DNA from: a virus
Length of the DNA: 25,449 nucleotides
IMG/VR virus record: IMGVR_UViG_3300023184_000477
Span: 1-25,449 of that record
Reading direction: 5' to 3' (one strand)
The notes under the pieces were generated by a model. The model saw only the letters and a program-made list of their open reading frames with translations. It did no database searches and was not told the origin of the DNA. A program made the position numbers and the translations under genes. Shown in pieces: positions 1 through 25,449 of the stretch (within the stretch, counting starts at the first letter, position 1; each line of letters opens with the position of its first letter).

Positions 1-2501
1 GTGGACTCACCGTACTCACTCGCCACGGCCCGCATGCGGTAGATGTGTTGGAACGTCCACTCCTTCAGGTTTGTCAGGTCGAAGTAAATCGCCCCGATCT
101 TCTTGGCTATCCACGCGCCGACCAGCGTGCATGCCATGTGGTACGCGTAGAACCGCTCCTTGGCTGAGTTGCCTCCCAGCTTGGATACGATGGCCATGGC
201 GGTGCGGTGCAGCTTGTCCTTGATCTCGGCCATGTGGGTAACCACGTACCGGAAGTAGTCATTTGCCCACACCCCGTGCACGTTGTTCACTAAGTACTGG
301 GACAGCGCGTGGTGCTCGGCGTGAATGGTAGAGTGCGCCATCAGTGAGTCCATGCGAGGGTAGTCTTCCATGGCAATTTCGAACACCCGCATCTGCGCGG
401 CTTCCGGGTTGTTCTTGACTTGAGCAAGCAGCGATGCGAGGTTCTTGTTGCTGGTAAACGTGGAGTTGAGTTGGTAGGGCGGCAGTGGCACCCGCTCCTT
501 TCCATCGCTCTGCATACCCACGCGGGGGCGACCGTTTGACATGGAGTACACCACGTCGCTGAGGTCTTTCGGGTCGGACAAGGTTCGGGTAATCTCGTCC
601 ACCAGCAGGGGTAGGTGGTTCATGACGCTGGCCCGGCCGACAATGGCCCGGGCTGTGGTGTCGGCGATCATGGTTTTTGTTGCGTTGCATAGGGCGTTCA
701 TGCCGATCAAGGCCACAGTTGATTTACCGTAGCCCGATGCCTCGGAGGACAGCGCCAGAGGGATGCCGTTCCAGCCGTTGAACCCTAGCAGAGGGACTAG
801 CGGCGCACCAAACTGAGTGCATATCGTGTACTGCCAAGGCTCACCATCCTCACGGTTGTAAAGGGTTTCCACGCCCTTAGACCACTCTTCCTTGGTGCCC
901 CGTACAGCGCCGGTCGGTAGTACAGACGGGTCGCGGATCACCGCGTCGCTGACTCTGACTTCGGTCCTTCCTTTAGCTGATACGAGTGAAGTACCGACTA
1001 GGAAGGCGGTGCGCTCGGCGTTCCACCCAAACTGCTTGAAGGTGTTGATCTCCTCAGCCTGCTTACGCAGTGTCGCAGCGTACTCGTTCATATACCACCC
1101 CAAAAATCTATCGTTATGGACGACGATCTCACGAGAAGCCAGCACCATCTTCATGCTGCGCAAGTCGGCTAGAAGCTTGGCTGGTAGCTCAAACTCCCGC
1201 CACTCTCCGTTGGGTCCGCCGCGCACGTTCATGCGCACGGTGTAGCAGAATGCCCCATCATCACCCTTGATCCGTTCAGTCAGATAGAACAGCGGGCTAG
1301 CCACGCGCTCGGGCTGCAGCACGTCGTCCTTGTCCTTCACCATTATCTTGAGCCCGTCCGCATCGGCGAAAAATCCTTGGGGCCAGTGCGGGATAGGCTT
1401 CTGTTCGGGCGGGTCAGTCTCGTCTTCAGCCGGGATGCTGATTACTGGCGTGGCCGGGATTTCCTCATACCCTAACTGCACGGGGGACTTCACCTTGCCA
1501 GCATGTGGACACCCGGTGCATCCGGCCTCGTTCTCAGCTTTGAATTTATCGCACGTCGCAGGTCCGGTCATCCAGCGGTCTAGCTTGCCTTGCGTCTCTT
1601 CTTCGCTGTACCCCGGGTGCTTGGCGCTCCACTCGTGGGCGAGTTCTTCTCCGTCGGTGCAGTGTTTGGCAACACCAAGATTGAGTCGCCACAGGGGCTC
1701 GGATTCGCTACCAGTATCACGGAAGATTCGGATTTGGTTGCAGTGCTCGACGACCCGGCTGAGTGAGGAAGGGGGAAACTCGCGGGCTGGTCCGGAGAAC
1801 TCATTTTCAAAAACCGTTGTCGCAACGCTGCGAGGTATGACGAGAGAATGTCGTTCGACATAGCGGGTAAGTAGTTCCCTATAGTAGTGGTGTGACTTAG
1901 GTACTTGATCCCGTACAAGTAGGACTGCAGTCCCCTTGTTGGTTGTGTCGATGGGGCGCAGTATGGAGGCTTCGTCTGTGTCGCGTGCTGCGTCTGACTT
2001 GAACCCTATGTGCCGCATCACCACGCGGGCCAGACTTGCAATCTCGCGCCACTCGTCCGGGGGGATAGCCTGTTCAAACGGCCAATAACAGTGGTATCCG
2101 CTGCCAGAGTCTACGAGTAGGGGGCGCGGCATCCCGGTTGCATCCATCATCGCCTTGATGGCGAGCACAGCATCTTTCTTTGTTGCGTAGTTGTCCGGCT
2201 TCAACGTGCCGTCGATCTTAACCTTACCAACGTCCATGTCCTGCCAGAGTGCTTTGACAGATAAAACGTTATCCTTGGTCCGGCCTACCGCATAGCCGAA
2301 GTCGTTGTACTTGATCTCTTTGAACGCGGAGCACGCGTGATACACGGTGCCGCCTGCAGCGGAAATCTCGGCCGCTTTCTCGGCCATGTCCGCAAAATCG
2401 TAAAATGGGTGGTGCGCCTTCTTCCCTGTCGGTAGGATTTCGACCAAGAACCTCACACCCGCGTCCGGTATTACCGTCTGCAAAAACGCCTGCATGTCCA
2501 T
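1..2501 (-). CDS. Phage primase-helicase (AEP-like primase plus P-loop ATPase), 3' end cut by window edge
   Basis: An open frame of 833 codons runs off the left edge without a stop. The N-terminal part carries archaeo-eukaryotic primase signs: the D88-x-D90 metal pair in WQDMDVG, the SGSGYHCYW motif near residues 132-140 with H137, and an RPIDTTNKG segment near 182-190. A Cys cluster (C317, C328, C331, H333) follows, as in the linker of many primases. The C-terminal part has a Walker A motif SGYGKST (589-595) and Walker B LLVDE (632-636), as in DUF927/D5-like helicases. It would make primers and unwind DNA at the phage fork. It starts at ATG 2501, 18 bp after the preceding stop, with only a weak GGAA site; a second ATG lies two codons in. 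Family-level call is strong; whether the primase also acts as a polymerase is unknown. Confidence 0.88.
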   Translation of the reverse strand, partial: MDMQAFLQTVIPDAGVRFLVEILPTGKKAHHPFYDFADMAEKAAEISAAGGTVYHACSAFKEIKYNDFGYAVGRTKDNVLSVKALWQDMDVGKVKIDGTLKPDNYATKKDAVLAIKAMMDATGMPRPLLVDSGSGYHCYWPFEQAIPPDEWREIASLARVVMRHIGFKSDAARDTDEASILRPIDTTNKGTAVLLVRDQVPKSHHYYRELLTRYVERHSLVIPRSVATTVFENEFSGPAREFPPSSLSRVVEHCNQIRIFRDTGSESEPLWRLNLGVAKHCTDGEELAHEWSAKHPGYSEEETQGKLDRWMTGPATCDKFKAENEAGCTGCPHAGKVKSPVQLGYEEIPATPVISIPAEDETDPPEQKPIPHWPQGFFADADGLKIMVKDKDDVLQPERVASPLFYLTERIKGDDGAFCYTVRMNVRGGPNGEWREFELPAKLLADLRSMKMVLASREIVVHNDRFLGWYMNEYAATLRKQAEEINTFKQFGWNAERTAFLVGTSLVSAKGRTEVRVSDAVIRDPSVLPTGAVRGTKEEWSKGVETLYNREDGEPWQYTICTQFGAPLVPLLGFNGWNGIPLALSSEASGYGKSTVALIGMNALCNATKTMIADTTARAIVGRASVMNHLPLLVDEITRTLSDPKDLSDVVYSMSNGRPRVGMQSDGKERVPLPPYQLNSTFTSNKNLASLLAQVKNNPEAAQMRVFEIAMEDYPRMDSLMAHSTIHAEHHALSQYLVNNVHGVWANDYFRYVVTHMAEIKDKLHRTAMAIVSKLGGNSAKERFYAYHMACTLVGAWIAKKIGAIYFDLTNLKEWTFQHIYRMRAVASEYGES

Positions 2502-3923: not shown

Positions 3924-4322
3924 TTATGAACGTTGAACGTGGATACGAATTTCTTCGTGGAGGTTGACGCCGGGGGGGAGATCGTTGTGTTCGGTACGGT
4001 ACTGCGCAACACCCGTCGCGTTGGCCCGTACGTCCATCAACTCAAAGGCGTCGTTATCCTTGACGTGCTGCAGGAAAACGTCCTTGTCACCAACCGACAC
4101 AGACACCTGCATTTTCTTGAATGCCGTGCCGTAGATGGTGCGAGTTGATTCACTCCCTTCCGCCTTAAACTTCCGCAAAAGTACACCTTCAATCTTCAAC
4201 TGCTTCGCCTTGTCGGCAGCGTTGTCCATCTCGTAAACTTTCTTACGTTGGACTCTGCGGTCGCGTAGGGCGATAAACACCTTCACCAACTCGTCGTTGG
4301 GGAGGTCACTCACTTTTGCCAT
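3924..4322 (-). CDS. Conserved phage protein of unknown function, 132 aa
   Basis: It starts at ATG 4322 after an AGGAG-type site in a leader that carries a GAAA-loop hairpin. The N-terminal half is charged and probably helical (ALRDRRVQRKKVYEMDNAADKAKQL is split by a likely coiled coil). The second half is mixed, ending in PPGVNLHEEIRIHV. From memory, proteins with the pattern 'RT..GTA(Y/F)K' followed by an 'RAN' segment and 'LPPGVN' near the end are common in phages beside SSB-like genes, but none has a settled role. The gap to the SSB-like gene is 18 bp, so the two are very likely co-expressed and may work together, for instance as SSB partner or recombination mediator. That role is a guess. 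Confidence 0.82.
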   Translation of the reverse strand: MAKVSDLPNDELVKVFIALRDRRVQRKKVYEMDNAADKAKQLKIEGVLLRKFKAEGSESTRTIYGTAFKKMQVSVSVGDKDVFLQHVKDNDAFELMDVRANATGVAQYRTEHNDLPPGVNLHEEIRIHVQRS

Positions 4323-4380: not shown

Positions 4381-6003
4381 TTACGCATACTCCTCTCGTG
4401 ATTCTTTCACCATATCCAGCAGGAGACCCTGCACCTTCTGCTTATTTTTAAGTCGCGTGTAGTATTTCCTTTCGATTTCAGTCCCCTCGATCATGACGAT
4501 CAGTTGGTTGAGTTTCTGCCCCGGGCGCGTGATCCGGGCGTTGGCCTGCACAAACGTTTCGTTTGACGAAATCGGTGCGAACCACACGATGGTGGACGCT
4601 GCAGTCAGCGTCAGACCGTGCGACATGGCACCGGGTTGGGCGACAAGGACTCGGGGTAGGGTGTTTTTCTGAAACGCCGTGAAAATGCGGTCCCGCTCGT
4701 TCTTGCTTACGTCTCCATAAATGACTTCGACTTCGGACCCGTACTGGTTACCCTGCAATGCTGCTTTTGTGAAGCTTGATTTGTTGAGCCGGTACAACAC
4801 TTTTGCGGCTACTTCTTTTACAGATACTACAAACGGCACAAACACAATGACCTTTGACCCGGACTCTTCGATTATCTCCATGAGAGCGTCGATGCGCGGC
4901 CCCACGTCCAGCTTCACCCCGCCACCGTTGGAGCCGTACACCGCACCTGACGCAACCTGAATTAGTTTTTGCGCTTTGACCGCCTCGTTCGCTGCCGTGA
5001 TCTTGCCTTCGGCTGCTTCGATGCACAGCGTGTTCATCATGTCCTTATACGCTTTCTTCTGCTGCGGGGTTAGTTCAACGGACCGTGTCGTATATGTCAG
5101 AGGGGGTAGGTCTATGCACTCGTCTCGTGTAAACCGAATGGATGGTTGCATTGCGTCATGCACAACGTCCAGCGCGTTGTCCCTAGGCAACCACAGGAAC
5201 TGATTGATCTGCCGCATGACCGTGTTCTTGAACCGATTGAAGTACGGAGGCACTCGTTCAGGCACCAGCAGCCTGCACTGCGCCCACGCATCGGTCGGGT
5301 CGTTCGGAGTCGGCGTTCCTGTCAGCCCCCACACCTTACGCGCCACCTGCTTGTTGCATATTTGGTTCAGCGCTCTGAACCGGTCGGTGCCCGAGTTGCG
5401 GCCTACCTGTGCGATCTCGTCGATGATGATCAGGTCAATGTCGTTGCGGTCCTTCAACGCTTCAACGAAGCCGGGCACCTTGATGCCGTCGTGGTTGATG
5501 AGGAATATGTCCACGTCCTGATTGAGCAGTTCTATACGCTTGGACCTAGACCCGTACAGCACGGCCACGTCAAGGTGCGGGAAGTGCGTGAATACTTCGT
5601 CGGCCCATGTACGATCAAGGGTTGACAGCGGTGTTATGACCAGCGCCTTACGCACCAGCTTGCACTGCCGCAGATAATCGTACGCCCATAACGTAGCCAG
5701 CGTCTTGCCGGTTCCTAAGTCCGACAGGTTGAATGCCCGACTTTCAAGGGATGTAAACGCTGCTGCTTCCCGCTGCGCTTCAAACGGTTTGAACTGCCCC
5801 GGCCATTTGTAGTGATACAGGATCGGCGACGGCGCGGGGAACCCCATGTTGCGTAGTACCTTCGTCTCGTCAGGCCCGTGCCGCACGGCGACGAAGTCCT
5901 TACCCCGAAAGCTGAACGGCTTGGCCGACGGGATGACGGACAGTATCGCGTTGGGGTCACGGACCCGAAGTACGAGGCACTTGTTGCGTCGACTGACTAA
6001 CAT
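4381..6003 (-). CDS. SNF2/DEAD-like helicase, 540 aa
   Basis: Superfamily 2 motifs occur in order: Q-motif-like KPFEAQREA (72-80), Walker A DLGTGKT (95-101), motif Ia LVITPLS (121-127), motif II DEIA (195-198, in place of DEAH), motif III LTGTP (227-231), motif V region SHGLTLTAAS (461-470) and motif VI QANARITRPGQ (486-496). The order and the RxxRPGQ form fit SNF2-like phage helicases that translocate on duplex DNA in replication, recombination or replication restart. It starts at ATG 6003 with AAGGAA ahead, inside the last 47 bp of the HNH gene. The full catalytic core is present and no frameshift is seen. The exact substrate cannot be told from sequence. Confidence 0.93.
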   Translation of the reverse strand: MLVSRRNKCLVLRVRDPNAILSVIPSAKPFSFRGKDFVAVRHGPDETKVLRNMGFPAPSPILYHYKWPGQFKPFEAQREAAAFTSLESRAFNLSDLGTGKTLATLWAYDYLRQCKLVRKALVITPLSTLDRTWADEVFTHFPHLDVAVLYGSRSKRIELLNQDVDIFLINHDGIKVPGFVEALKDRNDIDLIIIDEIAQVGRNSGTDRFRALNQICNKQVARKVWGLTGTPTPNDPTDAWAQCRLLVPERVPPYFNRFKNTVMRQINQFLWLPRDNALDVVHDAMQPSIRFTRDECIDLPPLTYTTRSVELTPQQKKAYKDMMNTLCIEAAEGKITAANEAVKAQKLIQVASGAVYGSNGGGVKLDVGPRIDALMEIIEESGSKVIVFVPFVVSVKEVAAKVLYRLNKSSFTKAALQGNQYGSEVEVIYGDVSKNERDRIFTAFQKNTLPRVLVAQPGAMSHGLTLTAASTIVWFAPISSNETFVQANARITRPGQKLNQLIVMIEGTEIERKYYTRLKNKQKVQGLLLDMVKESREEYA

Positions 6004-7686: not shown

Positions 7687-8349
7687 TTACCTCCTTGGTG
7701 CCCAGAACTCGCAGTGATCCCGTCCAGCACCGCACCAGCCGTTACACAATCCTGACGGTTTGGGTATCCACTTGTCCTTTACATACGCTTGCTCCAATCG
7801 CGCTACCTTGGTAAAAAAGTGCGACCAGATGCCCGGCAAATCGCTCCGCCGATACGTCTCTGTCGTCACCTTCCCATGCGCAAGCCACACATACACGGTC
7901 TTCACCGTTTGTACCTGTGGGTAGTGCTGCATGGTTGCCGCAGCAAACAGCTTCAACTGGTCGGAGTCCGGCCGTACTTTCCCGGTCTTCCAATCACCGA
8001 CCAATGCCTGATCTTCGTGTACCACGCCGATGTCAATGATGCCCCGGCACCAAGCATCTTCTTCCTGAAAACCGGTCGGGGTCAAGTCTTTTTTTAAGGC
8101 AAACTGCCACTCGACCAGCTTCTCCCCGGGCATCGACAGTATCTTGTCAGCGAAGGGTTTGTATGGGGCGTAGTTTCCTTCAAGGGGCGACGTGTCGTTT
8201 AAGTAGTCTTCAAGCGCCGTGTGCACCTCCTTGCCCCATATCGTGTGCACCGTATCTGTAAAGACGATGACCTTCTTGTTCTTGGTCAGGTCGTACTGCC
8301 GTGGGCAGGTTTCGAACTGGTTGAGGGAAGAGAAGGACCACGCTCTCAT
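7687..8349 (-). CDS. Cas4/RecB-like PD-(D/E)xK nuclease with Fe-S cysteines, 220 aa
   Basis: The protein opens with WSFSSLNQFETCPRQYDL (4-21), the typical RecB-family start with C15. Catalytic residues follow: H43 in GKEVHTALE, E80, D106 in GIIDIG, the D119-W-K121 motif in VGDWKTGK, and Q131 in QLKLF. C202, C206 and C213 near the C-terminus (LCNGWCGAGRDHC) complete a four-cysteine set with C15, as in Cas4 and AddB-type [4Fe-4S] nucleases. It is probably an exonuclease used in phage recombination or end processing. The frame is open to 8409, but ATG 8349 has GGAG seven bases upstream and overlaps the polymerase stop as ATGA. No CRISPR genes are nearby. Confidence 0.9.
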   Translation of the reverse strand: MRAWSFSSLNQFETCPRQYDLTKNKKVIVFTDTVHTIWGKEVHTALEDYLNDTSPLEGNYAPYKPFADKILSMPGEKLVEWQFALKKDLTPTGFQEEDAWCRGIIDIGVVHEDQALVGDWKTGKVRPDSDQLKLFAAATMQHYPQVQTVKTVYVWLAHGKVTTETYRRSDLPGIWSHFFTKVARLEQAYVKDKWIPKPSGLCNGWCGAGRDHCEFWAPRR

Positions 8350-10337
8350 TTTGTTTCTCCGTAAGTAGTACCGACGTCGCCCTCCGACCACACAACCAAC
8401 TCGGGCCACCAGTCGGGCGGCGTTCTCATTACGTCCTGCACGATGCGCAGGTGCTCCTCGGCGTAGTCTTCCGGCACCACGTAGATGAGTTCGTCGTGGA
8501 CGCAGTGCGCCGGATACCAGCCTGTGAGTCGTCTAACCCGCAGCGCATTCTGTATAAGGGTGTTGCGAGCAAGGTGCTGCACGATGTTCTCCGTGACCTT
8601 CCCGGCGTAAATCCGCGCCCGGTTCCTACCTTCGCCGTACCACCACTCCGACTTACCCTCGGCTACTTCCTGATGCAGCCCGGGGTACCGTATCAACCCT
8701 GTGGGGGTGTGTATCCCCTCGGCTGACGTGTAGCACAGGCCCTTCTTGTCTATGACCATGTGAGCCCCGGCGTGTACCGCCGCAAGCGCCGCGTGGCACT
8801 TCTTCCACCCTTGCACGATCTCAGGGTGCTTTCTACGCCACGCCTGTACTGCCTGCTCGGCCTCATCCTCGGTGTATATCAGCTTACCCCCGGATAGTAT
8901 CTTGGCGACTGACTTGAACGTCACGCCGCCAGCGCCGAATCCAAGTCCAAGTGCCTTGACCTTCTCGCCTTGGCGCTGCGTGCCGGTAACTGCCTCGGGG
9001 GCACACCCCCACTCCATGACTGCTGCAGCGCGGTACAAGTCCGCAGTCGGGTCTTTCTTCCACATCGCCGTCGAATAAGGGACGTTCCATAAAAAATGAT
9101 TTACCCGCATCTCGATACCGGACTGGTCGGCGACTACAACCATCTTGCCCTTGGGGGCCCGTAGCGACAGGCGTAGCGCGTTGGTCGGCTTGTGGATGAT
9201 CTGCTTCTTGTCGTCCCTCGGTATCCGGGGCAAGTTCTCTTGGTTCAACTTCATGCTGCCGCCGAAGCGGCCGGTGTGTGCGGCATAGTAGTTCTTGGCG
9301 ATGGGCATGTGCCCGCCAGTGGCTTCAGCCACGGCAAGGAACGATTCGATGCGCGACTCCAAGATGGTCGACTTGACGTCTAGGCGCAGCCGTGTGGCCG
9401 CTGCCACCAAAGGATTCTCATGCTCCTGCAAGTCAAGGTACGCTTGGTCGGTCTTGGCAAAGGCGTAGGTAGTCTTGCTTGGGTCGGCTGGGGAGGGCTT
9501 GAGTGGCACGTCTACTCCATGCACCTCAAGGAAGGCGGCAAACTTGGGTGCGGACGCCAGACCTTCACGGACATTCTCAGCGAGGGTGTCTACGACCCCG
9601 GTCATGGAATTTGCTACTTCAAGGGCTACGTCCTGCCCCACAAGGCCGTCGATCCCTGCTTCCTTGGTGAAACCCAACTCATGGGCTAGACGAAACAGGT
9701 CGAGGCGTTTACGGGCCTTCTCTTCGCCTAGGGTCTTGAGCAGCAGTTCCTTGTCGCATTCGAAGTTCGGCTCCACCAGCATACGGGTGGTCATGTCGAT
9801 GATTTTCATCTCGTCGTTCGACGTCTTCTTGCGAAGTATGCTAAATAAGTCTTTGCACTGCAGGGTGTCGTTGGTGTTGTAGAGCTTCATTTCGTGCAAC
9901 TCATGCGGCGTAAATTCGTGGAGGTGCTTTCCCTTGGTTTGGACCAAAACCGCCCCATCCTTTACCCCAAGGTTGTAGTGCTTGACCAGCGCCCCAAGGG
10001 AACCTCCGACGGTCTGCGCGTGGTGTGGTCTAGCCATAGATAGGGTGCATCCCCACATGGCGGGCCACACACCACAGCGCCAAGCCAGAAGCATGGCGTC
10101 GAATCCGGACATGTTGTGTGCCACAGCAAGCTTGTCGGACCAGTCTATTGCTTGAAGCGCGGCCTTGACGGATGCTTCCCCGAACACATGAACCGCCGCT
10201 TTGCCCGGCTCTACGATGGCCACCGAGATAAGTTCGGTGTCAGGGTGCATGACATAGGCAATGGGGTTCATCTTGGTCAGTGAGTGAGTCACCGACCAAA
10301 AAGTTTCAAAGTCAATAAAGACCGGAATAAGCTTCAC
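8346..10337 (-). CDS. Family A DNA polymerase with 3'-5' exonuclease domain, 663 aa
   Basis: The exonuclease domain has motif I IDFET (D9/E11), motif II HNMSGFD (N75, D80) and motif III YNTND (Y153, D157), all intact, so proofreading is expected. The polymerase domain has HTGRFGG (354-360), NLPRIPR (368-374), motif A VVADQSGIEMR (401-411, D404), O-helix motif B from R455 through K459 to F467-G468, and motif C VHDEL (613-617, D615). The O-helix ending 'LGLGFGAGG' is the phage/prophage form, with Leu where E. coli Pol I has Phe762. There is no 5' nuclease domain, as usual for replicative phage enzymes of this size. It begins with GTG (GTGA overlap with the upstream stop). It is the likely replicative polymerase. 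Confidence 0.96.
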   Translation of the reverse strand: MKLIPVFIDFETFWSVTHSLTKMNPIAYVMHPDTELISVAIVEPGKAAVHVFGEASVKAALQAIDWSDKLAVAHNMSGFDAMLLAWRCGVWPAMWGCTLSMARPHHAQTVGGSLGALVKHYNLGVKDGAVLVQTKGKHLHEFTPHELHEMKLYNTNDTLQCKDLFSILRKKTSNDEMKIIDMTTRMLVEPNFECDKELLLKTLGEEKARKRLDLFRLAHELGFTKEAGIDGLVGQDVALEVANSMTGVVDTLAENVREGLASAPKFAAFLEVHGVDVPLKPSPADPSKTTYAFAKTDQAYLDLQEHENPLVAAATRLRLDVKSTILESRIESFLAVAEATGGHMPIAKNYYAAHTGRFGGSMKLNQENLPRIPRDDKKQIIHKPTNALRLSLRAPKGKMVVVADQSGIEMRVNHFLWNVPYSTAMWKKDPTADLYRAAAVMEWGCAPEAVTGTQRQGEKVKALGLGFGAGGVTFKSVAKILSGGKLIYTEDEAEQAVQAWRRKHPEIVQGWKKCHAALAAVHAGAHMVIDKKGLCYTSAEGIHTPTGLIRYPGLHQEVAEGKSEWWYGEGRNRARIYAGKVTENIVQHLARNTLIQNALRVRRLTGWYPAHCVHDELIYVVPEDYAEEHLRIVQDVMRTPPDWWPELVVWSEGDVGTTYGETK

Positions 10338-22778: not shown

Positions 22779-23200
22779 GCGGCCTCCTTGTCTGCAAACA
22801 GGCGAACCCCGCCCCTGCTGGTACGCAGGCGGGTGTAGTACTTGGTCTTCTCGTCTCTTACATGCCAGAAGAACTGCATGTAAGCATCGAATACTGGGTT
22901 CGACGGCTTGTAGCCTTCGTCCGAGATGATGTCCCAGTACCAATGGGGGGTCAGGTCGTCACCGTCGCCATCGTGATCCCGCAACTCCATGCAGAAGCCC
23001 GGCGTGATGGTCAGGACGACATTGGAGTCGGTCAGGGGGTTGAACCACGACAACCCGACCGACACATCTGCGTCGGACAACTGGGGGTGAGAACAATCTG
23101 CCGACCACAGCTTGAACTCGTGGCGCAGATGGTGCCCCGCACACTCCTGCAGGGCTTGCTCCATAACACTTATCCACAGAGGGCCTTCGGCTCTGTCCAT
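22775..23200 (-). CDS. Hypothetical protein, 141 aa
   Basis: AAGGAGG lies four bases before ATG 23200. The protein is acidic in the middle (ELRDHDGDGDDLTPHWYWDI), a segment with Asp spacing that could bind calcium, and has a hydrophobic start 'LWISVMEQALQECAGHHL'. The C-terminus has basic residues (KTKYYTRLRTSRGGVRLF). No named family. The Asp-rich motif is suggestive only and no fold is assigned. Confidence 0.75.
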   Translation of the reverse strand: MDRAEGPLWISVMEQALQECAGHHLRHEFKLWSADCSHPQLSDADVSVGLSWFNPLTDSNVVLTITPGFCMELRDHDGDGDDLTPHWYWDIISDEGYKPSNPVFDAYMQFFWHVRDEKTKYYTRLRTSRGGVRLFADKEAA

Positions 23201-23221
23201 GAAACCTCCTTGTAGGTGGGG

Positions 23222-23356
23222 TCAGTCTTCGACCCCGTGACGTTCCTCGCACTCGGTGTCATTACCGCACACCTCCTTGGCCTCTACGTACGAGACCAAC
23301 GCTGCCACGGCAAGAACTACCACGGCGAACCACGCGACCAGCTTGTCAGCGGTCAT
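23222..23356 (-). CDS. Small membrane protein, 44 aa
   Basis: GGGAG lies ahead of ATG 23356. Residues 5-25 (KLVAWFAVVVLAVAALVSYV) are one membrane span; the tail EAKEVCGNDTECEERHGVED is acidic with two Cys that could pair in the periplasm. The layout parallels the 53-aa membrane protein at 13677-13838. It overlaps the upstream gene by 11 bp. A perfect 6-bp hairpin (GGGGTC/GACCCC) overlaps its stop codon but no U tract follows. Confidence 0.68.
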   Translation of the reverse strand: MTADKLVAWFAVVVLAVAALVSYVEAKEVCGNDTECEERHGVED

Positions 23357-23507
23357 GGCTTTCTCCCTCTGTGGTGGCGGGCATAACGACCCAAGACATT
23401 GAATCGGCCTTCGCAGCCGTTACGGCCGCATCAAACTCTTCCTTGCTCATTCCGACCTTCCGCGCTGCAATCAGCGCGTCCATGATCAAATCCTGAATAT
23501 GCTTCAT
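23346..23507 (-). CDS. Small helical protein, 53 aa, first gene after the repeat region
   Basis: ATG 23507 has GAGG seven bases ahead; an in-frame start at 23528 lacks a site. The chain is almost entirely helical (HIQDLIMDALIAARKVGMSK, then FDAAVTAAKADSM). It is the first gene downstream of the gene-free repeat region, so its expression would respond to any operator there. No family recognised. Confidence 0.68.
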   Translation of the reverse strand: MKHIQDLIMDALIAARKVGMSKEEFDAAVTAAKADSMSWVVMPATTEGESHDR

Positions 23508-23612
23508 GTCACACCTCTTAGTAAACAATTAACTTAGCTTTACATTGTACGCCTGTCCGGATTCTTCGCTCGGACTGTCCCTGTGGTGCTGATTTGTGTA
23601 GGGTAGCGGCAA

Positions 23613-23710
23613 TGCAAAGGTAAGTTGGTGTCGGAGGCGACCACTCGTCCACGGCGTTTCGTCGATAGGGCCCTTCCCCCTACCGCCGCCGACACCAACT
23701 TACCTTTGCA
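23613..23710. repeat. 22-bp perfect inverted repeat, long stem-loop
   Basis: Left arm 23613-23634 and right arm 23689-23710 are exact reverse complements over 22 bp (left arm begins TGCAAAGGTAAG). After one mismatch four more pairs (GGCG/CGCC) continue the stem. The spacer is 54 bp and has one TAGGGC. No T run follows on either strand, so it is not a simple terminator. Confidence 0.9.
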
Positions 23711-23715
23711 CACTA

Positions 23716-24046
23716 GGGGGTGTGCCCTAGAAAAAAAGGGGGTGTGCCCTAAAACGGCGAAAACTAGGGCAGTAACAATTCTGATTGGAATCATGGACTT
23801 CGGCTTGATGTGCCCTAGTGCCCTAGTTTTCCAGCGTTCCTCCGTCCGGAAAGAGAGCGTAGTACCCTTACAACACCAAGGGATATTACTGCACAATTCC
23901 GGAGAGATATAGGAAATACTAGGGCAGTGGGGGCACATATATATAATTCATTAAAGAATATATATATATAAGAGACACTTACCTAGTAGGGCGGTGTGCC
24001 CTAATCGGTGTGCCCTAAACCCAAAATTTTAGGGCTTCAGGGCACA
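23716..24046. repeat. Array of TGTGCCCTA-type sites
   Basis: The core GCCCTA or its complement occurs at 23724, 23746, 23765, 23812, 23820, 23920, 23987, 23998, 24012 and 24030, with a degenerate copy AGGGCACA at 24039 and another TAGGGC at 23666 in the loop of the inverted repeat. Two 14-bp direct copies (GGGGGTGTGCCCTA) start 22 bp apart at 23716 and 23738, and two CGGTGTGCCCTAA copies start 14 bp apart at 23992 and 24006. Several sites face each other as palindromes, for example 23744-23771 and 24009-24046. Confidence 0.9.
23937..23971. other. AT tract within the repeat array
   Basis: Thirty-three of 35 bases are A or T, mostly alternating (AT)n on both sides of an ATTC/GAAT inverted repeat. 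The surrounding DNA is GC rich. Such a tract beside iterons is a likely DNA unwinding element; it could also be a promoter's AT-rich upstream part. Confidence 0.7.
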
Positions 24047-24161
24047 TTAAGTACAGCTTTACAAAGATGTAGCCAGAGGTGCAATTTAGGTGGGGGGTTA
24101 TGCGGTGCACCACGGCTTAGGAAAGGACAGCTTTACATCAGCTGCCCAGACCTAAAGCGTG

Positions 24162-24767
24162 TTACATGCCAGCGATTTCGGCATCCTTGCGTTTATCGGC
24201 CACGGCTTCGGACTCCGTGACCTTATCAAGCGCAGCAACATCCTGCACCGCGTTGGCGATGAATTGCTCGCCGATGTACTTGTTGTACGTTGCGGTCATA
24301 CGCGCCAGCAATTCGGCGTGTTGCAGCGTTGCGCCTTTCTTCGCGGCCTTGTTCAGCCTGTCGATCAGCTTGTCGATCTCTTCCTGAACATCGAACACCG
24401 ACTTCGGCTCGGGGGCCTTTTTCGCGGTCGTCCACGCGAACGCCATGACTTCATCAGCGTAAGCGTCAGTCCACGCAAGCGGCTCCTTATCCGTACGTGC
24501 CGCCACGTCGAAGAACATCATGCCTTTGGTTTCCTTCGAGTAGGCCAGATTGCCGAATTTCTCGAAGAACGCCACGACTGCGGCCTTGACGTGCGGGTTC
24601 ACCACTTCCAGCAATTGCTGCGCCGGGGTAGCGTTGCGATCTTTGCAGACCGAGAACGCCACGGCCGCGACTGCGGCCAGCTGAATGTTGCCGTCCAATT
24701 CCTTCGACGTGCGGCCGATATTGCCAACGGCCACGGCGAATTGCTTTTTGTTCATCGAATGCTTCAT
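24162..24767 (-). CDS. Hypothetical early protein, 201 aa
   Basis: GGAG lies seven bases before ATG 24767. The protein is helical and charged. Segments include FAVAVGNIGRTSKELDGNIQ, an Ala-rich hydrophobic stretch LAAVAAVAFSV, and a C-terminal helical part with DVQEEIDKLIDRLNKAAKK that is likely a coiled coil. No family recognised with confidence. It lies between the 18-bp repeat and the origin-like region, and is the second gene from the right. An early host-directed or replication-initiation role would fit the position, but nothing in the sequence shows it. Confidence 0.82.
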   Translation of the reverse strand: MKHSMNKKQFAVAVGNIGRTSKELDGNIQLAAVAAVAFSVCKDRNATPAQQLLEVVNPHVKAAVVAFFEKFGNLAYSKETKGMMFFDVAARTDKEPLAWTDAYADEVMAFAWTTAKKAPEPKSVFDVQEEIDKLIDRLNKAAKKGATLQHAELLARMTATYNKYIGEQFIANAVQDVAALDKVTESEAVADKRKDAEIAGM

Positions 24768-24795
24768 TTTGATTCTCCATGCTTGGTTTAGGGGG

Positions 24796-25093
24796 GACTG
24801 CTATATGCGCCGCAGGTACTACTTGATCTTGCGGGAAACCCGGTCACGCGTTACCGCGTAGTACACGGGTTGGGTTATCCATGCTTTGCTTGCGGTTCGT
24901 TCCGGAACGGTTACATCTCCGGAATACACCTCACCTACCAGACTCGGCTTTGCGTTAGCCGATTTGAAGTATCCGTACAGCGTGTTGCTGGCGGATTTGA
25001 TTGGCGCAGTATCTGTGCGAAGTACAGCCAGCTGGCTTTGTGTGCAGCGTACGGTCATAAGATTCTCCGGTTCACGCGGCGCATATAGCAGTC
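24796..25093. repeat. 18-bp perfect inverted repeats around the 79-aa gene
   Basis: GACTGCTATATGCGCCGC at 24796-24813 and its exact reverse complement at 25076-25093 enclose 262 bp with one gene. No target-site duplication is visible outside the repeats. A TGCTTGGTTT direct repeat also occurs at 24780-24789 and 25149-25158, just outside each arm. Confidence 0.9.
24819..25058 (-). CDS. Hypothetical protein, 79 aa, rightmost gene
   Basis: ATG 25058 has GGAG six bases ahead; the frame is open upstream to 25163 but the extra part crosses the inverted repeat and hairpins and is unlikely to be translated. The chain is beta-like and basic (MTVRCTQSQLAVLRTDTAPI, then SLVGEVYSGDVTVPERT, ending RDRVSRKIK), with few helices. 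No family recognised. It would be the first gene expressed from the leader at the right end. Confidence 0.72.
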   Translation of the reverse strand: MTVRCTQSQLAVLRTDTAPIKSASNTLYGYFKSANAKPSLVGEVYSGDVTVPERTASKAWITQPVYYAVTRDRVSRKIK

Positions 25094-25155: not shown

Positions 25156-25426
25156 TTTGGCATGGTCTAGGCATTCCCCCACCTCTCGACAATTTGGAGC
25201 TTTGTGCCCCGGCTACCCCGTCCACCCTAATGTTTGGGGATCGCTGTCTACTAGCGCGCCCGGTACTTCCCCGAACCGCTCGACCTCTCTGCGAGTTTGG
25301 CATCCTAGGCAATAGGCCATTGGTGCGTATACGCGGATAACGTCCTAACCGGAAGGGTTCCTGCGAGCCTTATCGCCCGGTACGGGTTAGAATCCACTCA
25401 CCGTACAGGTAGGGGCGTGTCAACCA

Positions 25427-25449
25427 CCCCCCCTCCCCCCCCTCCCCCC
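25427..25449. repeat. Low-complexity C tract at the right edge
   Basis: Twenty-one of 23 bases are C, with single T at 25434 and 25443. It is unlike the rest of the window and abuts its end, so a sequencing or assembly edge effect is likely; a real molecule end is possible. Confidence 0.7.

Follow-up and report, generated by a model that had tools for sequence, protein, structure and literature searches.

The origins of Staphylococcus aureus pathogenicity islands (SaPIs) and phage-inducible chromosomal islands (PICIs) offer the closest described parallel to the element considered here. According to two studies, PICI origins consist of an AT-rich region between two sets of iterons, and the SaPI Rep protein binds its iterons by a C-terminal domain (PMC7581432, PMC6092414). 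In this study, we analyzed an array of short repeats at positions 23666-24046 of a virus sequence, IMG/VR record IMGVR_UViG_3300023184_000477. The whole stretch of 25,449 bases, which is possibly a fragment, is referred to as the window. The anatomy of this array and of its counterparts in related phages indicates that it is likely a replication origin, and it probably works like a SaPI/PICI origin, bound by the phage's own DUF927 primase-helicase. Searches of an open-licence subset of the literature found no description of such an origin in phages; origins of this kind have so far been described as particular to satellite islands, to which these phages appear to form an exception.

The likeness to SaPI/PICI origins lies in a layout of two sets of words around an AT tract that is the weakest DNA, in words that are specific to the element, and in an initiator helicase of the DUF927/Cch/SaPI Rep family. 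The SaPI initiator binds the origin with its C-terminal domain, and by analogy the C-terminal domain of the phage enzyme is a candidate for the same task. There are also differences. SaPI/PICI origins lie directly 3' of rep, whereas the array is ~21 kb from the initiator gene in the window; the primase part is fused in the phage protein; and the phage relatives have a conserved site resembling that of integration host factor (IHF), as well as a fixed triple and pair of words with an 8-bp period. The carriers are whole phage genomes and not satellites: the helper-phage dependence for virion genes that marks a PICI satellite does not apply to relatives that carry terminase and other late genes, and in one cultured cousin, Rhizobium phage RHph_TM3_14A, terminase, portal, and capsid are all annotated. 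Because layout and initiator family agree but adjacency to rep does not, we regard the array as PICI-origin-like in its working and do not file it as a PICI origin.

The Cch/Cch2 operon and putative origin of SCCmec provide a second comparison. In the available text of one of these studies, Cch contains DUF927 and Cch2 binds direct repeats via its C-terminal domain, but there are only three iterons, located downstream of cch2, and no split set around an AT tract is described (PMC7581432). It is Cch that the phage primase-helicase matches best, in structure as well as in sequence. A possible further parallel is phage P4, in which the alpha protein, an initiator of the primase-helicase type, uses a C-terminal winged helix to bind short iterons close to an AT-rich region; P4 ori/crr differs in its iteron words and its separate crr. 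The origins of λ, pSC101, and R6K also combine iterons with an AT-rich region, and those of pSC101 and R6K include an IHF site, but their iterons of ~18-22 bp are bound by Rep or O proteins that recruit the host helicase. The scanned genes beside the array gave no Pfam or PHROG match to an initiator of the λ O or plasmid Rep type.

The array lies in an intergenic gap with a minus-strand gene on either side. Eleven exact GCCCTA/TAGGGC hexamers, in both orientations, fall within positions 23666-24035, compared with four in the remaining 25 kb, and a degenerate facing copy, TGTGCCCTG, follows at 24038-24046 on the minus strand. In 5000 simulations of local composition, a 381-bp stretch contained a mean of 0.56 hexamers and at most 4, and even the commonest 6-mer per 381 bp peaked at 6 copies in 100 simulated 25-kb genomes. 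An earlier interpretation made from the letters of the window alone (the sequence-only reading) had described the array correctly, including direct pairs (22 bp apart at 23721/23743 and 14 bp apart at 23995/24009), facing pairs, and a 35-bp AT tract. It had placed the chance expectation at about 0.2, and our value is nearer 0.6, which leaves the conclusion of enrichment unaffected. A G-rich front to the unit (AGGGGGTGTGCCCTA) is common to only two copies and was therefore not counted within the word.

Several features of the locus had gone unmentioned in that reading, namely a 27-bp inverted repeat, a pair of words with an 8-bp period, and the window-wide minimum in stability at the AT tract. 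The pair is arranged head to tail on the plus strand (23809-23825, with words at 23812-23817 and 23820-23825) and is the counterpart of an opposed pair conserved in the relatives. About 17 bp past it, at the place corresponding to that in the relatives, lies an IHF-like site (AATCATGGACTTC, 23789-23801, plus strand), the best match in the array, though weak, with 2 mismatches to WATCAANNNNTTR. The AT tract, a candidate DNA-unwinding element, occupies positions 23937-23971; the 40-mer starting at 23937 is the least stable in the whole window (z = 5.7), with no weaker place. A single minus-strand word (23920-23925) flanks the tract on the side of the pair, and across the tract (23987-24046) lie words at 23987 (minus), 23998 (plus), 24012 (plus), and 24030 (minus), followed by the degenerate copy.

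Using the window as a DNA query against cultured phages gave no match, and neither did a direct search of viral contigs and phages with the 201-aa product of the phrog_1448-family early gene next to the array (24162-24767, minus strand), its syntenic neighbor in most relatives. We reached 54 viral loci through a metallopeptidase-type (DUF2201) gene and scanned them for dense short words without assuming the word of the window. Clusters were present at the corresponding place in many of these loci. One of the closest relatives, L011, carries the window's word, TAGGGCA; the words elsewhere are TAAGACAA, TTAGACAA, AACGTCAT, GGAACAAT, TGTAATA, TGCTACA, CATAACA, and AAGTTAC, with GTGGACA in L010. 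A second search, by the phrog_1448-family gene, collected 50 contigs, not all of them independent and the window among them. There, 6-12 copies of a word lay within ~850 bp of the gene in 40 of the 50, compared with at most 4-5 in shuffles, and the five contigs with no more than 4 copies have 219 bp of DNA or less on that side of the gene. Cultured cousins carry arrays too: Pseudomonas phage Rollin has one, and Rhizobium phage RHph_TM3_14A has a weaker version. No comparable split array was seen in KPP25, a more remote phage whose polymerase is related, and an AAAGCC cluster in L046/L030 was not counted as an array, being in a single orientation and overlapping an open reading frame. The presence of the array in relatives had been proposed as a test by the sequence-only reading, and it was found there, with a word that differs between clades. 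The element is conserved in place and plan while the word changes.

This plan became apparent when words were mapped relative to the least stable stretch in the window and its relatives. In most relatives, outer words of mixed orientation lead to a head-to-tail triple with an 8-bp period beside the AT tract; after ~100 bp follow an opposed pair with the same period, an IHF-like site ~16 bp past the pair, and a further 2-4 words. The window follows this plan more loosely: it has its pair (23812, 23820), and words lie to either side of its AT tract. In 19 of 24 loci, the window among them, no other 40-mer of the locus is less stable than the tract (two of these loci are views of one contig). Genome-wide, it ranks first in six of eight cases (G006, G007, G008, G011, Rollin, and the Rhizobium phage, with the G007 scan covering 60,000 of 63,305 positions), second in G009, and outside the top three in G012. 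Exact matches to the IHF consensus WATCAANNNNTTR occur in 15 of 38 arrays, where shuffles predict 1.3, and many of them lie 199-243 bp from the array start. The cumulative GC-skew check that had been suggested gave a divided answer: minima lie near the array in G006, G012, and roughly G009, and are off by some kilobases in G008 and G011, while G007 gave no clear position. Since genes diverge at the array, skew is weak support for the origin.

Position-conserved arrays, an AT tract that is the weakest DNA, an IHF-like site in a fixed place, and some skew minima together argue well for the iteron origin that had been proposed. The alternative offered alongside it, cooperative operators at which a phage regulator would control early transcription, explains less, and we consider it unlikely. 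In relatives, the array does lie close to where leftward late genes give way to a rightward early operon, and L010 has two further arrays, of other words, that could be operators. In most relatives, however, the array follows the first early gene instead of preceding it, and in L038/L052 it is on the opposite side; it therefore seems to have no fixed relation to the promoter of that gene. A scan limited to sigma-70-like promoters found none in 23200-24900, no conserved regulator gene was found among the compared genomes, and the array includes two features that an origin would need, a weak AT tract and an IHF-like site. A cosB- or pac-like packaging site read by terminase is more improbable still, and we give it very little credence. 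Terminase genes are 1.5-2 kb from the array in many relatives, the Rollin record begins just beside the Rollin array, and λ cosB also joins terminase-binding repeats with IHF. Against this, terminase is ~6-7 kb off in Rollin and the Rhizobium phage, the contig ends of six large relatives are away from the array, and we know of no packaging site in which ~10 words surround the weakest DNA of the genome.

The sequence-only reading had recognized no known initiator gene, but the window does encode a recognizable candidate: a DUF927 primase-helicase (3-2501, minus strand; 833 aa), whose family has PDB matches to the initiator helicase Cch and to a SaPI protein. For a profile of 13 family members, these matches are 5dgk (Cch active helicase; 7.5e-29) and 8tch (a SaPI-type "pathogenicity island protein"; 8.7e-19). 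The protein is ~990 aa long in relatives, with a C-terminal extension that is missing from the window because the contig ends within the gene. It belongs to a replication module with a SNF2-type helicase (4381-6003, minus strand), conserved in array-carrying relatives, and a family A DNA polymerase (8346-10337, minus strand). All six whole or nearly whole relatives share these three genes with the window, along with VRR-NUC, Cas4-like, and several genes of no assigned function. The two binders nominated earlier, a 92-aa helix-turn-helix protein and a DUF3310 protein, are not among the genes common to these six; homologues of the former occur in only 2 of the compared genomes, and the latter is missing from several that carry the array. 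The modeled C-terminal domain of the primase-helicase (predicted local distance difference test 79, predicted template modeling score 0.76) has the order strand-helix-helix-strand-strand, as in winged helices, and its top PDB fold match, over all 124 residues, is Cch, although the match is statistically weak. We consider the primase-helicase the best candidate binder of the array. In G012, the gene is split over three overlapping frames (L117:4593-7471), reflecting either frameshifts or sequencing errors.

It is also conceivable that the array is an origin whose iterons are bound by another phage protein, such as the product of the neighboring phrog_1448 gene, but this too we judge improbable. 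The gene adjoins the array in nearly all relatives found through it, on either side, and its product is small and mostly helical, with a helix-helix-hairpin stretch in the model. That AlphaFold model has no PDB fold match, however, and the gene is decoupled from both the array and the word. Profile searches find no phrog_1448 in the array genomes L010 and G013, and a different gene occupies its place in L023 and L024, which carry arrays as well; the same word accompanies phrog_1448 proteins only 19-27% identical (L035/L043 versus L038/L052), and different words accompany proteins ~50% identical (L012, L019, L020). In addition, many podophages have phrog_1448 among their early genes, and no such split arrays were seen in them. 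We do not favor it as the binder. In several podophages (tf, Bf7, VPp1, and others; L123-L132), it is one of the first early genes and lies close to an end of the genome or behind a long gap. The 1.6-kb gap upstream of the phrog_1448 gene in Acinetobacter phage MD-2021b (L065:4497-5428) contains numerous direct TTCTTATCA-type repeats, almost all of which share an orientation.

We infer the following mechanism for an origin bound by the DUF927 primase-helicase. An AT-rich unwinding element flanked by two sets of short iterons would be recognized by the SaPI-Rep/Cch-like enzyme through its C-terminal winged-helix-like domain, the protein binding probably as two hexamers. IHF may help by bending the DNA beside one iteron set. 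The enzyme would then melt the AT tract, load as the helicase, and prime, before handing over to the phage family A polymerase.

Several observations weigh against this interpretation. The window array is looser than most, with no 8-bp triple and with 2 mismatches in its IHF-like site, and the window initiator is truncated before its C-terminal domain. The distance of ~21 kb between array and primase-helicase gene departs from the PICI arrangement, and in G006 no array was found next to the gene for the helicase. Divergent transcription confounds the GC skew, and the Cch fold match of the C-terminal domain is weak (E 1.1, probability 0.47). Covariation between this domain and the word is only suggestive. 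The domain is more variable than the helicase core among primase-helicases: 74% of it is common to the two TAAGACAA phages, whose cores are 86% identical, whereas 67% is common to a TAAGACAA phage and TTAGACAA phages, with core identities of 93-94%. The AACGTCAT word predicted for G028 and G018, whose helicase C termini resemble that of G012, was not found in these fragments, which perhaps do not include the origin region.

A broader model is possible, though we propose it only tentatively and think it may well prove wrong: a widespread phage lineage would retain a single origin plan (triple, AT tract, opposed pair, and IHF site) in which the 8-bp word has been repeatedly swapped, with the C-terminal domain of the primase-helicase changing in step. 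If so, origin and initiator would diversify as private lock-and-key pairs, perhaps barring satellites or competing phages from the replication machinery. Apart from this model, an origin of this type in full-size phages with a SaPI-Rep-like primase-helicase makes it plausible that satellites obtained their replication module from phages or share an ancestor with them in this respect. It also provides an origin that can be tested in a large group of phages, most of them uncultivated, and the clade-specific words form a natural series for learning how this initiator family reads DNA.

Other features of these genomes are recorded here in their own right. The inverted repeat that adjoins the window array (23613-23710) has 27-bp arms at 23613-23639 and 23684-23710 that are 96% complementary and separated by 44 nt; it forms a strong hairpin (RNA fold of -63.4 kcal/mol, z = -5.6 versus shuffles), and an Rfam search that included it gave no match. 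The last bases of the window (25425-25449) are almost all C, interrupted by a few T, and probably mark where the assembly stopped, with no biological meaning. Distinct from the origin-like arrays, a second array of TTAGACAACTA words in one orientation lies just upstream of a MoxR-like ATPase gene in L010 (7605-7868) and L007 (596-857), and these words could be operators. A third array in L010 (2784-3105), which is made of TTTGACAA words and encloses tandem ATTTAAATACGGC-type units, is in a divergent region beside the terminase genes. Near-identical hairpins of the general form CTCGGGGGAATnATTCCCCnGAG precede many L010 genes, ahead of the ribosome-binding sites (4243-4268, 4702-4726, 5466-5494, 8972-8996, and others), as if each mRNA leader had the same stem. 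In the first 395 bases of the Rollin record (L133:1-395), the TATGCAA array is accompanied by a 25-bp palindrome, AAAAGGTAGnAAnTTnCTACCTTTT, which is present in four copies and a single half-copy.
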